Below are positions 12,345 through 18,563 of a DNA stretch of 64,000 nucleotides, one piece after another; positions within the stretch are counted from its first letter, which is position 1, and each line of letters starts with the position of its first letter. The notes beneath the pieces were generated by a model that worked only from the letters and a program-made list of their open reading frames with translations, had not been told where the DNA came from and did not search any database. Source of the DNA: Pseudopedobacter saltans DSM 12145 (lineage in GTDB: Bacteria > Bacteroidota > Bacteroidia > Sphingobacteriales > Sphingobacteriaceae). Both the position numbers and the translations under genes were made by a program. Where the stretch lies: contig NC_015177.1 of assembly GCF_000190735.1 (NCBI RefSeq), forward strand, positions 4,340,001-4,404,000, in the 5' to 3' direction.

Positions 12345-14312
12345 TCAATTCAGTGGTCCCGGAGCTTTTTCACCCGTACCATATCTTAGCGGAGTATTAC
12401 TTCCGGCAGGAGATACTCTGATATAGCCAGACATTTCCTGATGTAGCGCACTACAAAAGTCGCTACAGTAAAAAGGAGTAATGCCTGTTTTTTTAGGAAT
12501 CCATTTTAAGGTTTGTGTTTCACCCGGCATTACCAATAGTTCGGCATTATTAGCTCCTTTTATGGCAAATCCATGAGGTAAATCCCAGTCTTGTTCTAAA
12601 TTGGTTACGTGAAAATAAACCTCGTCTCCAATTCTGATGCCTTCAATATTATCAGGAGTCAGGTGACTTCTTATCAATGTCATGTAAACATGTACCTTAT
12701 TTCCATCTCTGGTAATTTTAGTCTGATCTTCACCTTTTGCAACATACGGATGTTGATTTTCTTCGATTTTATAGAATTTCAAAGAATTATCCTTGATGAT
12801 ACTTGCAGGAATGATCTGACTATAATGCGGTTCCCCAATGGTAGGAAAGTCTAATAATAGCTGCATTTTGTCTCCTGAAATATCATATAACTGAGCACTT
12901 TGTGTAAGTTCAGGTCCGGTAGGCAAATAGCGGTCTTTGGTAATTTTGTTATAAGCGACTACATATTTTCCATAAGGTTTTTTCGTGTCTCCGCCCGGCA
13001 CAGTTAAGTGTCCGATAGAGTAATAAGTCGGTACTCTGTCCAATATCTGCAATGATTTTACATTCCATTTTACAATTTCAGAAGAAACGAAGAAAGATGT
13101 ATAAGCATTTCCTTTATCGTCAAATTCTGTATGTAAAGGACCCAAACCTGGTTTTTCTACTTCTCCATGTAATACTGATTCGTATTTTAAGACATTAAAT
13201 CCATCGTATTCGCCATCAAAGTCTTTGTTTTCGATAGCTTTTTTGATTTTTGAAAATGCAAATACAGGCAGTAAAGCAGCCAGTTTACCACTTCCAACAA
13301 TAAATTCACCTGATGGATCAACATCTGTCCCATGTGGTGATTTTGGACAAGGGATAAAGTAACACACATCTTTCAATTGGTCTGGAGTAAGTACCAACAC
13401 TTCGTTTTTAATTTCGGATGTTGCAGAATGCTTATGTTCATCCCATTTATTGTGTGCATATTTTACCTGTTTCTTTTTCCCTTTACCAGCTTTAATCATT
13501 TCTTCGGCTTTTTTCCAATTTACAGCCATAATAAAGTCTTTGTCCCTTTGGGAAGCATTGACTTCTAAGAGTGTATAAGCTTTTTCTGTGTTGTAAGTAG
13601 AAAAGAAAAACCATCCACTGCTTGGTCCTTTACCGCTATGACTTAAGTCGAAGTTTAATGCTGGAACCTCCAGTTGAAAAGCAATATTCATATCGCCTTT
13701 ATCTTTATCTACACTAATAAAGCTGATAGTTCCTTTAAAGTTATCTTTATAGGTATGAATAGGGTATTCTACACCATCATCAGGAACACTGAAGCGAGTT
13801 CCTGCAACCACGTATTCTGTGTTTTCAGTTAAGAAAGGGGAAGAGTGGTTGCCAGCACTATTAGGTAGTTCCAGTATCTCAACGGTTTTAAAGGTTTTAA
13901 GATCTAGCCTGGCTACTCTGGGTGTGTTATTTCCATTTACAAATACCCAGCGACCGTCCATTTCACCATTGGTCTGTGAAATCTGTACATGGTGCAAATC
14001 ATCGTAAGGAACAAATCCGTAAGAAGTATTCAGCATAGGAATGGTTTCTTCGCTATATCCGTAACCAGTTTCAGGGTTTTGCGAGAATACAGGAAGTACT
14101 TTTAATAATCTGCCAGAAGGAAAACCGTAAACAGATAATTGACCACTGAATCCTCCAGAAACGAATCCATAGAACTCGTCGTATTGCCCAGGGGCCACAT
14201 AAACTTTAGAGGCGGCATCGCTATTTACTGCATCTCCCGCTCCTTTTGGTTTACATGCTGCCATCAGAAGGAGGACAGACAAGATATAAAGTATTGTTCT
14301 GTTTTTTAACAT
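12345..14312 (-). CDS. nosZ: Nitrous oxide reductase, clade II (Sec-exported)
   Basis: Protein of 655 residues that reduces N2O to N2. The N-terminus (KNRTILYILSVLLLMAAC) is a Sec-type, lipobox-like signal and not the twin-arginine signal of clade I. The beta-propeller carries the CuZ histidine motifs (DDLHHV, GNHSSP, DLSHSG, SPHGTD, GPLHTEF, GEPHYS), and the C-terminal cupredoxin domain carries the CuA ligands His580, Cys616, Cys620, His624 and Met627. No nosR is seen, typical of clade II, so electrons probably come from the cytochrome c encoded just upstream. Confidence 0.96.
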   Translation of the reverse strand: MLKNRTILYILSVLLLMAACKPKGAGDAVNSDAASKVYVAPGQYDEFYGFVSGGFSGQLSVYGFPSGRLLKVLPVFSQNPETGYGYSEETIPMLNTSYGFVPYDDLHHVQISQTNGEMDGRWVFVNGNNTPRVARLDLKTFKTVEILELPNSAGNHSSPFLTENTEYVVAGTRFSVPDDGVEYPIHTYKDNFKGTISFISVDKDKGDMNIAFQLEVPALNFDLSHSGKGPSSGWFFFSTYNTEKAYTLLEVNASQRDKDFIMAVNWKKAEEMIKAGKGKKKQVKYAHNKWDEHKHSATSEIKNEVLVLTPDQLKDVCYFIPCPKSPHGTDVDPSGEFIVGSGKLAALLPVFAFSKIKKAIENKDFDGEYDGFNVLKYESVLHGEVEKPGLGPLHTEFDDKGNAYTSFFVSSEIVKWNVKSLQILDRVPTYYSIGHLTVPGGDTKKPYGKYVVAYNKITKDRYLPTGPELTQSAQLYDISGDKMQLLLDFPTIGEPHYSQIIPASIIKDNSLKFYKIEENQHPYVAKGEDQTKITRDGNKVHVYMTLIRSHLTPDNIEGIRIGDEVYFHVTNLEQDWDLPHGFAIKGANNAELLVMPGETQTLKWIPKKTGITPFYCSDFCSALHQEMSGYIRVSPAGSNTPLRYGTGEKAPGPLN

Positions 14313-14343
14313 TACAGTAAGGTTAAAGGGTTATTCGATACTA

Positions 14344-14832
14344 TTATTTTATACCATCGTTTTGACGCATGTACTCTACTATGCTTCTGGCCTCATCATC
14401 AGACAGATTCTGATTTGGCATACGTACCAGACATATTTCCAGTTGTGCCTGTAGTTCAGGATCTTTATCTATCATCTGATCAGGATTGGTAATAAAGTTC
14501 ATGATCCATGGCAGACTTCTGCGTTCGGTAACACCTTTCCAGCCTGGTCCAACCAGTTTTTCCCCAGTTTGTTTATGGCAGGAGTTGCATTTGGTGGCAG
14601 CAATAGCTTTTCCCCGAGCCGCCAAAGTAGCGTCTAGTGGTCCGGCTTTCACGTTGGAATCATTAAACTTTCCTTCTCCTCTGGAAGGATCGTAATCAGG
14701 TTTACCCGTTGTAGATGTAGCTTGTTCAGCCACGGTGTTTTTTGATTCCGAGGTAGTATTGCCCCCGCCACAAGAACCAATTAATAAAACAGTAGCCAAC
14801 AAAATAGCGGTTGTGATAATTGTCCTGTTCAT
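14344..14832 (-). CDS. Lipoprotein cytochrome c, first gene of nos operon
   Basis: Protein of 162 residues with lipobox LIGSC (Cys21), a flexible linker, and one class I cytochrome c domain with CNSCH (Cys82, Cys85, His86) and a likely distal Met in RMPNQNLSD near residue 137. Only 31 nt separate it from nosZ. It is the probable electron donor to NosZ (NosC-like); this is inferred from position. The gene has its own promoter with a Crp/Fnr-type box. Confidence 0.9.
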   Translation of the reverse strand: MNRTIITTAILLATVLLIGSCGGGNTTSESKNTVAEQATSTTGKPDYDPSRGEGKFNDSNVKAGPLDATLAARGKAIAATKCNSCHKQTGEKLVGPGWKGVTERRSLPWIMNFITNPDQMIDKDPELQAQLEICLVRMPNQNLSDDEARSIVEYMRQNDGIK

Positions 14833-15012: not shown

Positions 15013-16353
15013 TTATTCTATCTCATCAACACTTTTATTGGAGTGATGTCTCAATCTTTGATGTTTGGCTTCTCCAATCCGTTGCCTGGTATAAATGCTG
15101 TTATGACCAGAAAGCAGATAGGAAACTACACAAGCAATAGCAACGTAAATTCCACATTCTACTCCAAATAGTTCTATCCCCATTAGCATACACGCCAAAG
15201 GAGTGTTGGTGGCACCAGCGAAAACAGCAACAAAACCCATTCCTGCCAATAAACTAAACGGAAGTGGTAAAAAGAAGGAAAGAGCGCTACCTAAAGTTGC
15301 ACCGATAAAGAAAAGAGGAGTTACCTCGCCTCCCTTAAAACCGGCGGAAAGGGTAACAATAGTGAATGCCATTTTTAGTGCAAAGTCAGATAACGGAGCT
15401 TGTTGTTCAAAAGATTCTAAAATAACAGGAATGCCTAAACCAATATATCGGGTTGTTCCTAAAGCTAGGACTGCCAGTGCGACAATAAAACCACCAAGTA
15501 CAGGTCGGAGAGGAGCGTATTTGATTTTTGTTTTAAATAAAGCGCTGGCCCAATGTATTGTTTTACTAAAAGTAGCCGCACATATACCAAATGCGATTCC
15601 AGCTATGATACTATATACTATTGGCAGTAATTCTATTTTTGGAACAATAGATATATGGTAATGCGTATGTTCAACATTCCAAATATTGGTAGCCCAGTCA
15701 GCAAGAATTGCCGCCGCAAATGCAGGGAAAATAGCATTATAACGTATGCGCCCTATTAGAAAAACCTCAAGTCCGAAAACTGCTCCGGCCAGCGGTGTTC
15801 CAAAAACAGATCCGAAACCTGCCGAAATTGCGGCTATCAGCAATATTTTTCGGTCTTCGGAATTTAGTTTTAAAGGCTTGCTAAACTGGTCAGCAATAGA
15901 ACCAGCCATCTGTATGGCAGTCCCCTCCCGACCAGCCGATCCTCCGAAAAAGTGAGTAGCTATAGTTCCCAAATAAACTAAAGGAGCCATTCGGAAGGGA
16001 ATAATCTTATCAGGATTATGTATATTGTCTATCAACAGGTTGTTGCCGGCTTCTACATTTTTACCAAAATAATGGTATAGTAAACCACTAAAGAAACCAC
16101 TTACAGGTAATAAGGCTATGATCCATTTGTGAGATTCTCTAAACTCAGTTACCCAATTTAAAGACTTAAGAAATAATGCAGAAGCTGTCCCTATACATAG
16201 GCCAATAATCAGGCTTATCAATAACCATTTAAATATGTAAGGTACGCCTGGGAATTTTCTAAAGAAGCTTCTGAGTTTTATTCCAGTTTTTTGGCTTAAT
16301 GTTCTTTTGCTAGTTGACATAACTATCCTGACTAATATATTTATATTTTTCAT
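15013..16353 (-). CDS. CLC-type anion transporter, fluoride-exporting CLC^F (EriC^F) subtype
   Basis: Membrane protein of 446 residues with the CLC fold (about 10-12 membrane segments). Its selectivity motifs differ from chloride CLCs: GNNLLID in place of GSGIP, GREGT in place of GREGP (gating Glu retained), and GGEVTPLFFIGA in place of GGxFxP. These changes mark the fluoride/proton antiporters, and the fluoride riboswitch immediately upstream agrees. It exports toxic fluoride. The ATG (16351-16353) directly follows the riboswitch; the next Met is 11 codons in. Confidence 0.88.
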   Translation of the reverse strand: MKNINILVRIVMSTSKRTLSQKTGIKLRSFFRKFPGVPYIFKWLLISLIIGLCIGTASALFLKSLNWVTEFRESHKWIIALLPVSGFFSGLLYHYFGKNVEAGNNLLIDNIHNPDKIIPFRMAPLVYLGTIATHFFGGSAGREGTAIQMAGSIADQFSKPLKLNSEDRKILLIAAISAGFGSVFGTPLAGAVFGLEVFLIGRIRYNAIFPAFAAAILADWATNIWNVEHTHYHISIVPKIELLPIVYSIIAGIAFGICAATFSKTIHWASALFKTKIKYAPLRPVLGGFIVALAVLALGTTRYIGLGIPVILESFEQQAPLSDFALKMAFTIVTLSAGFKGGEVTPLFFIGATLGSALSFFLPLPFSLLAGMGFVAVFAGATNTPLACMLMGIELFGVECGIYVAIACVVSYLLSGHNSIYTRQRIGEAKHQRLRHHSNKSVDEIE

Positions 16354-16356
16354 TAA

Positions 16357-16408
16357 TCAGGCGTCATCAGCTTAAAAAGCGGTTGGGTAAGGAAGAACAC
16401 CATTTCCT
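16357..16408 (-). ncRNA. Fluoride riboswitch (crcB motif)
   Basis: Read on the minus strand: GGAAATGGTGTTCTTCC, then ACCCAACCGC, TTTTTAA, GCTGATGACGCCTGA, and the ATG 3 nt later. This matches the conserved features of the fluoride (crcB) riboswitch: the GG..ATGG..TTC..CC hairpin, AACCGC and GCTGATGACGCCT. Ending right at the start codon of a CLC^F gene suggests control of translation initiation. The upstream end is only about 10 nt from the tRNA-Ser 3' end. Confidence 0.9.
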
Positions 16409-16418
16409 TTTGATTATG

Positions 16419-16505
16419 CAGAGAGGAAGGGATTCGAACCCTCGATACGGTTACCCGTATACTACCTTTCCAGGGTAGCTCCTTCAACCACTCGGACACC
16501 TCTCT
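16419..16505 (-). tRNA. tRNA-Ser (anticodon GGA)
   Basis: An 87-nt cloverleaf: acceptor AGAGAGG/CCTCTCT, anticodon stem CTACC/GGTAG with loop CTGGAAA (anticodon GGA), a long variable arm (TACGGGTAACCGTA) typical of Ser, T-arm with TTCGAAT, discriminator G. The 3' CCA is not encoded. No terminator follows; the fluoride riboswitch begins about 10 nt downstream on the same strand. Confidence 0.97.
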
Positions 16506-16518
16506 GTTTGCTGGGCTG

Positions 16519-16526
16519 CAAATGTA
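16519..16526 (-). promoter_or_regulatory. TAnnTTTG promoter element of tRNA-Ser
   Basis: TACATTTG on the minus strand, 13 nt upstream of the tRNA 5' end, a perfect -7 element. No comparable element fits in the 10-nt gap between tRNA and riboswitch, so this promoter probably also drives the CLC^F gene. Confidence 0.6.
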
Positions 16527-17915: not shown

Positions 17916-18563
17916 ATGAAATACGAAGCTTATTTATTTGATTTAAACGGAACAATTATTGACGACATGCATTTTCATGCAAGAGCATGGGAAAGTATTT
18001 TAAATAAAGATTTGGGCGCAAATCTGACATATGATGAAGTAGTGTTACAGATGTACGGTAAAAATGCAGAACTTTTGGAGAGGGTATTTGGAAAAGGCCA
18101 TTTCACTCAGGAAGAAATGGACCGTATTTCTTTGGATAAAGAAAAAAGATATCAGGACGAATTTCGCCCCCATCTGAAATTGATAGATGGATTGGATATG
18201 TTTCTGGAGAAAGCATATCAGGCCGGAATAAAAATGGCAATTGGGTCAGCAGCCATCCCCTTTAATATAGATTTTGTTCTGGATAATTTGAATTTAAGGA
18301 AGTATTTTGGTGCCATAGTAAGTGCAGATGACGTACATAAAAGTAAACCAGATCCCGAAACTTTTACCAAAGCCGCAGAACAATTAGATATCCCATTCGA
18401 AAGGTGTTTGGTATTTGAAGATGCACCAAAAGGGATTGAAGCAGCTCAAAATGCAACAATGGATGCCTTGTGTATCACTACATTACATCCTGAAGAAGAT
18501 TTTAAGCAATACAACAATGTTGTGAAGTTTATTGCAGATTATCGAGGTTTACCACTTTTGTAG
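17916..18563 (+). CDS. HAD-superfamily phosphatase, beta-phosphoglucomutase-like, with DxN active site
   Basis: Protein of 215 residues of HAD subclass IA with a helical cap (about 16-85). The nucleophile Asp9 is in FDLNGT; the usual second Asp of the DxD motif is Asn11. The later motifs are standard: motif II Ser (AIGSAA), motif III Lys (KSKPDPETF) and motif IV acidic pair (VFEDAPKG). It looks like sugar-phosphate phosphatases or beta-phosphoglucomutase, which use the second Asp as general acid/base, so the Asn is notable. It is followed by a strong terminator. Confidence 0.85.
   Translation: MKYEAYLFDLNGTIIDDMHFHARAWESILNKDLGANLTYDEVVLQMYGKNAELLERVFGKGHFTQEEMDRISLDKEKRYQDEFRPHLKLIDGLDMFLEKAYQAGIKMAIGSAAIPFNIDFVLDNLNLRKYFGAIVSADDVHKSKPDPETFTKAAEQLDIPFERCLVFEDAPKGIEAAQNATMDALCITTLHPEEDFKQYNNVVKFIADYRGLPLL

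Follow-up and report, generated by a model that had tools for sequence, protein, structure and literature searches.

In the tRNA-tufB operon of Escherichia coli, tRNA and mRNA are made as one precursor, and bacterial tRNA-mRNA polycistrons of this kind are split by tRNA maturation enzymes. A further tRNA-mRNA precursor of E. coli, secG leuU, is named in a title cited in PMC3985628. Fluoride riboswitches located upstream of exporters are well known, too (excerpts of PMC7266159). Here, we describe a locus of Pseudopedobacter saltans DSM 12145 in which both elements seem to be joined. Similar to the tRNA-mRNA polycistrons, tRNA and mRNA would share one precursor that is separated by tRNA maturation; in contrast to the E. 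coli transcripts, the tRNA lies upstream of a ligand-controlled leader, and a riboswitch would receive its 5′ end from tRNA processing. The locus resembles other fluoride riboswitches of family RF01734 in that an aptamer scoring above the gathering score precedes a fluoride exporter, but no promoter of its own can be recognised, and its 5′ side is a tRNA gene. Among the matches listed in a literature search, and within the parts of those texts that were accessible, no fluoride riboswitch co-transcribed with a tRNA is described. Both components are known separately, and their joining can be regarded as new among these matches. With a probability of about 0.78, the CLC-F exporter and its riboswitch form the second cistron of a tRNA-Ser(GGA) unit. 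The anatomy of this locus is solid, and the mechanism is what we infer from it.

Architecture of the locus

The locus was found in a 64-kb stretch of the P. saltans genome (hereafter the window, to which all coordinates refer). On the minus strand it reads, in this order, the promoter element TACATTTG, tRNA-Ser(GGA), the fluoride aptamer and the CLC gene. The tRNA-Ser(GGA) gene (16418..16505, minus strand) was identified with ARAGORN and scores 56.1 bits with Rfam. The aptamer, a crcB motif at 16351..16416 (minus strand), matches the covariance model of RF01734 with 51.3 bits (E 2.6e-11), above the gathering score of 34, and is the sole RF01734 match in the genome (one contig, 4,635,236 bases). 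Its pseudoknot strands GGUGU and ACGCC are complementary, and GGTG and CGCC are invariant in 19/19 aligned rows. A tRNA-Ser followed by a crcB-type riboswitch on the same strand had already been proposed in an earlier, sequence-only reading of this DNA, and ARAGORN as well as the covariance model confirm both elements. The spacer of about 10 nt given there is correct for helix P1, which starts at 16407: the junction (16408..16418, minus strand) counts 11 nt from the discriminator base (16419) to P1, and the Rfam aptamer model itself starts already 1-2 nt past the tRNA 3′ end. In the window a single match to this tRNA-riboswitch pattern is present, whereas 100 shuffles yielded none.

The third element is the CLC gene (15013..16320, minus strand), to which we assign the ATG at 16318-16320 (MSTSK...) based on a start conserved in relatives and on protein matches. 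The protein matches PF00654; its best PDB match is the CLC-type fluoride/proton antiporter 6d0j (E 7.8e-61), and the best other CLC in the PDB, 1kpl, follows with E 8.4e-12. It is hence closer to the solved CLC-F than to the chloride CLCs, and by these matches the gene is a CLC-type fluoride exporter. tRNA-Ser and the CLC cassette lie on the same strand with neither a terminator nor a known promoter motif between the genes. Downstream of CLC, and also on the minus strand, genes for a cytochrome c and a Sec-dependent nitrous-oxide reductase (TIGR04246, 921.1 bits) are present at 12345-14832.

Promoter and terminator of the tRNA-Ser unit

The -7 element of Bacteroidota sigma-ABfr promoters has the consensus TAHHTTTG, with the G at position -5 (excerpts of PMC6847099). 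TACATTTG agrees with this consensus and was located at 16519..16526 (minus strand), i.e., where a perfect promoter element had been claimed 13 nt upstream of the tRNA; from its position, transcription is predicted to start near 16514 (minus strand). A DNA search of the genome gave one tRNA-Ser gene with GGA and one with GCU anticodon, whereby such a search could miss a second GGA gene of strongly deviating sequence. As one GGA copy was located in the genome, the promoter in front of it should be active.

Scanning for a hairpin followed by a T-run revealed no intrinsic terminator from 16418 to 16300, and a wider scan agrees. The same scan detects an intrinsic terminator at the tRNA-Asn of the window and, in the congeners, after tRNA-Ser(GGA) in 12/15 loci; the three loci without a call are L056, L057, and L058, the last of which is cut by a contig end. 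These congener genes are probably orthologues of the P. saltans gene, since a gene resembling the HAD-family gene at 17916 adjoins tRNA-Ser(GGA) in 9/15 loci.

Among 55 other riboswitch loci of the family, 44 carry a perfect TAnnTTTG no more than 40 nt from P1, ending 6-19 nt before the helix, against a background of 900/31,842 48-nt windows (2.8%). For this count L009 was dropped, as its 23.5 bits lie below the gathering score, as well as L079 and L098, which are exact duplicates; the loci include close relatives, so that the counts are not independent events, and L010-L039 were taken as the 30 top-scoring loci of the family rather than drawn at random. In P. saltans the TAnnTTTG nearest to P1 lies 111 nt upstream and is the promoter of the tRNA itself, and these 111 nt contain neither TAnnTTTG nor the relaxed form that was tested. 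The absence of this motif near P1 is no proof that a promoter is absent, as no perfect TAnnTTTG is present over this 40-nt distance in 11/55 relatives either. Nevertheless, the earlier claims that tRNA and riboswitch are separated by neither a terminator nor a TAnnTTTG motif both hold, and the claim built on them, a tRNA promoter driving a riboswitch-controlled mRNA, is well supported: because a terminator and a nearer TAnnTTTG are absent, and the sole GGA tRNA found must be expressed, the tRNA-Ser promoter probably produces the CLC mRNA as well, which means that one tRNA-riboswitch-CLC precursor would be made from TACATTTG.

Occurrence in Bacteroidota and other phyla

Whether the synteny is kept in related genomes had been left as a question, and the answer is negative for the congeners and the family loci. 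No tRNA is present at any of the 38 other riboswitch loci of the genus and family (L002-L039, about 3 kb each) or at the 18 closest CLC-F cassettes (L080-L097), and the tRNA-riboswitch arrangement occurs in 0/17 congeners. A pattern search of 395 Bacteroidota genomes returned P. saltans alone. This pattern, like the one used globally, undercounts, since 2/5 fusions of other phyla were recovered and L103, L162, and L180 were missed.

Tight fusions do occur in two other phyla. The global pattern search of an 84,980-species collection, which may omit genomes very near P. saltans, gave 10 stretches with two true fusions: L100 (also L040) from an Omnitrophota MAG, where the aptamer model overlaps the end of a tRNA-Gln and crcB follows, and L099 (also L047) from Elusimicrobia GWA2_56_46, with tRNA-Val, 10 nt and crcB. 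The other eight stretches contain no tRNA according to ARAGORN, and three of them hold a riboswitch alone. Family searches around both fusions yielded 43 Elusimicrobiota and 35 Omnitrophota loci, a few of them below cut-off, all of which were scanned for tRNAs; three further Omnitrophota matches had no locus and hence no tRNA scan. In total, 3/43 Elusimicrobiota loci are tight fusions with tRNA-Val (L099, L103, L162) and 2/35 Omnitrophota loci are tight fusions with tRNA-Gln (L100, L180). The gene after the fusion is crcB-like in L099, L100, L103, and L180 and enolase-like in L162, with Pfam run on L099 and L100 and the other three judged by eye.

As in P. saltans, a tRNA, an aptamer model (here at 0-24 nt) and a gene, in these cases crcB or enolase, lie on one strand, but the fusions differ in the tRNAs and the genes. 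Moreover, CCA is encoded after the tRNA in L099 and L103, so that RNase Z may not be the nuclease there. By eye, no promoter is apparent in the gaps of L103, L162, and L180, and the platform of L162, possibly also that of L180, is terminator-like; therefore, translational control is no rule of such fusions. As tRNA and phylum differ each time, we assume three independent origins of the tRNA-riboswitch fusion, counted from tRNA and phylum and not from a tree.

Several loci in which a tRNA is near but not adjacent were not counted as fusions, i.e., L110 (30 nt), L150 (47 nt), L151 (52 nt), and L182 (71 nt, below cut-off), as well as L143 and L147 (more than 280 nt), L102 and L158. The gap of L110 contains a T-run and the promoter-like TTGTTATAAT (by eye). 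In the Elusimicrobiota loci L102 and L158 the last 20 nt of tRNA-Val are repeated 158-159 nt after the first copy and before the riboswitch, and P1 starts 117 and 22 nt, respectively, after this repeat. It looks as if a fusion had been split here by a small mobile or tRNA-derived element. Three further observations concern the neighbourhood of fluoride riboswitches. In L162 (Elusimicrobiota G777) tRNA-Val(CAC) and the riboswitch precede the enolase-like gene, whose place at such a junction is taken by a crcB-like gene in related genomes. In L110 (Elusimicrobiota G356) a riboswitch match of 53.1 bits lies before the start of a type IV pilin-like gene (by eye), which is an odd partner for fluoride. 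In L171 and L159 (G772:C82), two fluoride riboswitches are placed back to back, one on each strand, with a gap of about 50 nt.

Origin of the arrangement in P. saltans

The CLC protein of P. saltans is 61.6-69.7% identical to the L080-L097 proteins from other genera of the family, compared to 43-46% for the riboswitch-linked CLCs of six congeners and 52% for the best congener CLCs among the matches listed (G004, G005, G008). In a CLC tree it falls into a clade with the 18 rows of the other genera (support 98/88), and branches of 100/100 separate it from the six congeners, although this tree has long branches and the closest congener CLCs (G004, G005, G008) were left out. Vertical descent from the riboswitch cassette of the congeners is not favoured by identity and tree. 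The L080-L097 cassettes have a near-identical aptamer and the same platform and start position, with a protein about 62-70% identical, but differ in having TAnnTTTG right before the aptamer in 12/18 cases and a tRNA in none. Since the exporter groups with other genera, and a terminator as well as a recognisable promoter of its own are missing, a promoterless cassette probably landed behind tRNA-Ser. A transfer or rearrangement to the tRNA 3′ end, in which the cassette lost its promoter and the tRNA its terminator, would fit best, and the present locus would be a derived state in which the cassette type of other genera replaced the tRNA terminator. Differential loss of CLC paralogues is a possible alternative origin. 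Integration at a tRNA with a repeated 3′ end was rejected, since no second copy of the last 23 bases of the tRNA was found in the window at up to 3 mismatches.

It could also be that the juxtaposition is accidental and functionless, i.e., that an indel removed terminator and promoter and left behind an exporter which is tRNA-driven and poorly regulated. A frequency of 1/395 in Bacteroidota and 0/17 among the congeners would fit such an accident, but aptamer, platform and start are all intact, and tight fusions occur repeatedly in two other phyla, with tRNA-Val in three genomes and tRNA-Gln in two, which makes an accident unlikely.

5′ end of the CLC mRNA

Most of the CLC mRNA could also stem from an additional non-consensus promoter located within the tRNA gene, with read-through from the tRNA being minor. 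The 11 relatives that lack a perfect TAnnTTTG near P1 are presumably still transcribed, and in other phyla the gaps of L110, L150, and L151 contain promoter-like sequence (by eye), but in P. saltans the 111 nt before P1, free of TAnnTTTG and its relaxed form, are mostly constrained tRNA sequence, and with no terminator found the tRNA promoter should read through anyway. We therefore consider a major internal promoter improbable, more so than an accidental juxtaposition.

If the mRNA is derived from the tRNA promoter, the 5′ end of the riboswitch would be generated by removal of the tRNA, most likely by RNase Z. This enzyme is encoded in the genome (300.8 bits, cut-off 292.95), and a cut after discriminator base 16419 would give a product with the predicted 5′ end at 16418 (minus strand), leaving 11 nt before P1. 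When the G of TAnnTTTG is set at -5, the predicted leader before P1 is 2-15 nt long, with a median of 8, in the 44 relatives that have this motif, and likewise 2-15 nt in the 12 of these loci within the closest clade. As 11 nt falls within this range, tRNA processing would restore a leader of normal length, and the processed mRNA would begin near the predicted start of those transcripts that relatives make from their own promoters. The proposal that tRNA 3′ processing creates the riboswitch 5′ end is thus plausible and gains from the presence of RNase Z and from the leader length, which is an argument from spacing.

Start codon and expression platform

The sequence-only reading had let the aptamer end 3 nt from the ATG, and this geometry is probably wrong. 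It refers to an upstream in-frame ATG (16351..16353, minus strand), which lies within the 5′ arm of the platform hairpin, at its end, and was rejected as start codon by comparison with relatives. The CLC start codon is probably 16320, 30 nt past the end of the aptamer model. A hairpin of the form CCUG(A/G)U.../...UCAGG (UCAGC in L084) and the aptamer are common to P. saltans and the 18 closest cassettes, and in all 19 an ATG, 16320 in P. saltans, follows 5-7 nt after the CAGG (18) or CAGC (1) arm, whereby the spacing is partly by construction, as the 19 leader segments were cut with a pattern requiring such an ATG. In an independent test, the long CLC frame of 17/18 relatives starts with an ATG that lies 5-7 nt downstream of the pseudoknot strand's complement, with L084 as the exception.

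In P. saltans the predicted hairpin (16327..16361, minus strand) pairs CCUGAUUAAU (16352-16361) with AUUAGUCAGG (16327-16336), and the CC at its base is also part of a pseudoknot strand. Standard pairs make up 90.5% of the platform pairs, compared to 23.7-46.6% when the arms are slid. In 39/55 loci (L009 left out here as well) the pseudoknot strand has a complement 1-7 nt upstream of an ATG that opens a long frame, versus a shuffled mean of 3.7%; this complement is missing in L006, L084, and 14 loci of the L010 type. The platform forms CCUAC/GUAGG (or GUGGG) and CCUG(A/G)/UCAGG change together across loci. Covariation in the 19 closest leaders is not above that of shuffles, with 451/500 shuffles at least equal for pairs changed on both sides and 427/500 at least as high in covariation score; hence, support for the platform comes from conservation and from the change between subfamilies. 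In loci of the L010-L013 type (genus g14) GCCUGUU, located just over the start codon, is a potential pairing partner of the aptamer sequence AACAGGC (by eye), which is perhaps a second kind of start-blocking platform.

The ligand-free fold additionally predicts an outer pairing of UGACG (16362-16366) with UGUCA (16315-16319) across the start codon (16315..16366, minus strand). When the pseudoknot strands were blocked in a crude fold, the open probability rose from 0.14 to 0.48 for the U and from 0.10 to 0.42 for the G of the AUG and hardly changed in the wider region (0.33 to 0.37), so that the start is opened partly. In the proposed mechanism the mRNA would be made constantly, and fluoride would act after transcription. 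In the absence of fluoride, the aptamer 3′ strand (UGACGCCUGAUUAAU) would pair with bases before and over start codon 16320, whereas in its presence the GGUGU-ACGCC pseudoknot would take up part of this strand and the start would open. Such a start-codon-blocking switch agrees with Flavobacterium johnsoniae, where Shine-Dalgarno sequences are lacking and structures close to the start tune initiation (excerpts of PMC6847099). Since a terminator is absent and a conserved stem adjoins the start codon in relatives, control by fluoride is likely translational, via a pairing whose exact form is a prediction; the proposal that all control falls on translation is supported to that extent and had to be corrected in its geometry. 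Control of CLC transcription through a fluoride-dependent terminator, as in the Bacillus cereus type, is very improbable, since no T-run hairpin separates the aptamer from the CLC start and AUAGUUAUG instead of a U-run follows the platform hairpin, even though platforms of the tRNA-linked L162, L150, L151, and L182 look terminator-like by eye.

Implications of a tRNA-linked fluoride riboswitch

We tentatively suggest, as a reading that may well turn out otherwise, that these fusions represent a recurrent design with at least three origins (tRNA-Ser in Bacteroidota, tRNA-Gln in Omnitrophota, tRNA-Val in Elusimicrobiota), in which the tRNA promoter would give a constant and growth-linked supply of mRNA, tRNA 3′ maturation would set the aptamer 5′ end, and fluoride would decide on translation or termination. 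As only a few bases separate the start of the aptamer from the position of tRNA cleavage, aptamer folding might feed back on how the sole tRNA-Ser(GGA) is matured. The recurrence across three phyla makes the fusion design searchable. The 5′ end of a riboswitch is usually thought to be the transcription start, whereas in P. saltans it would come from tRNA maturation, and the sole regulated step would follow transcription. The apparent promoter swap, in which terminator and promoter were lost and the platform was kept, would be a natural test of a riboswitch behind a constitutive tRNA promoter. For P. saltans this would mean that mRNA and tRNA supply are not independently settable at this locus.
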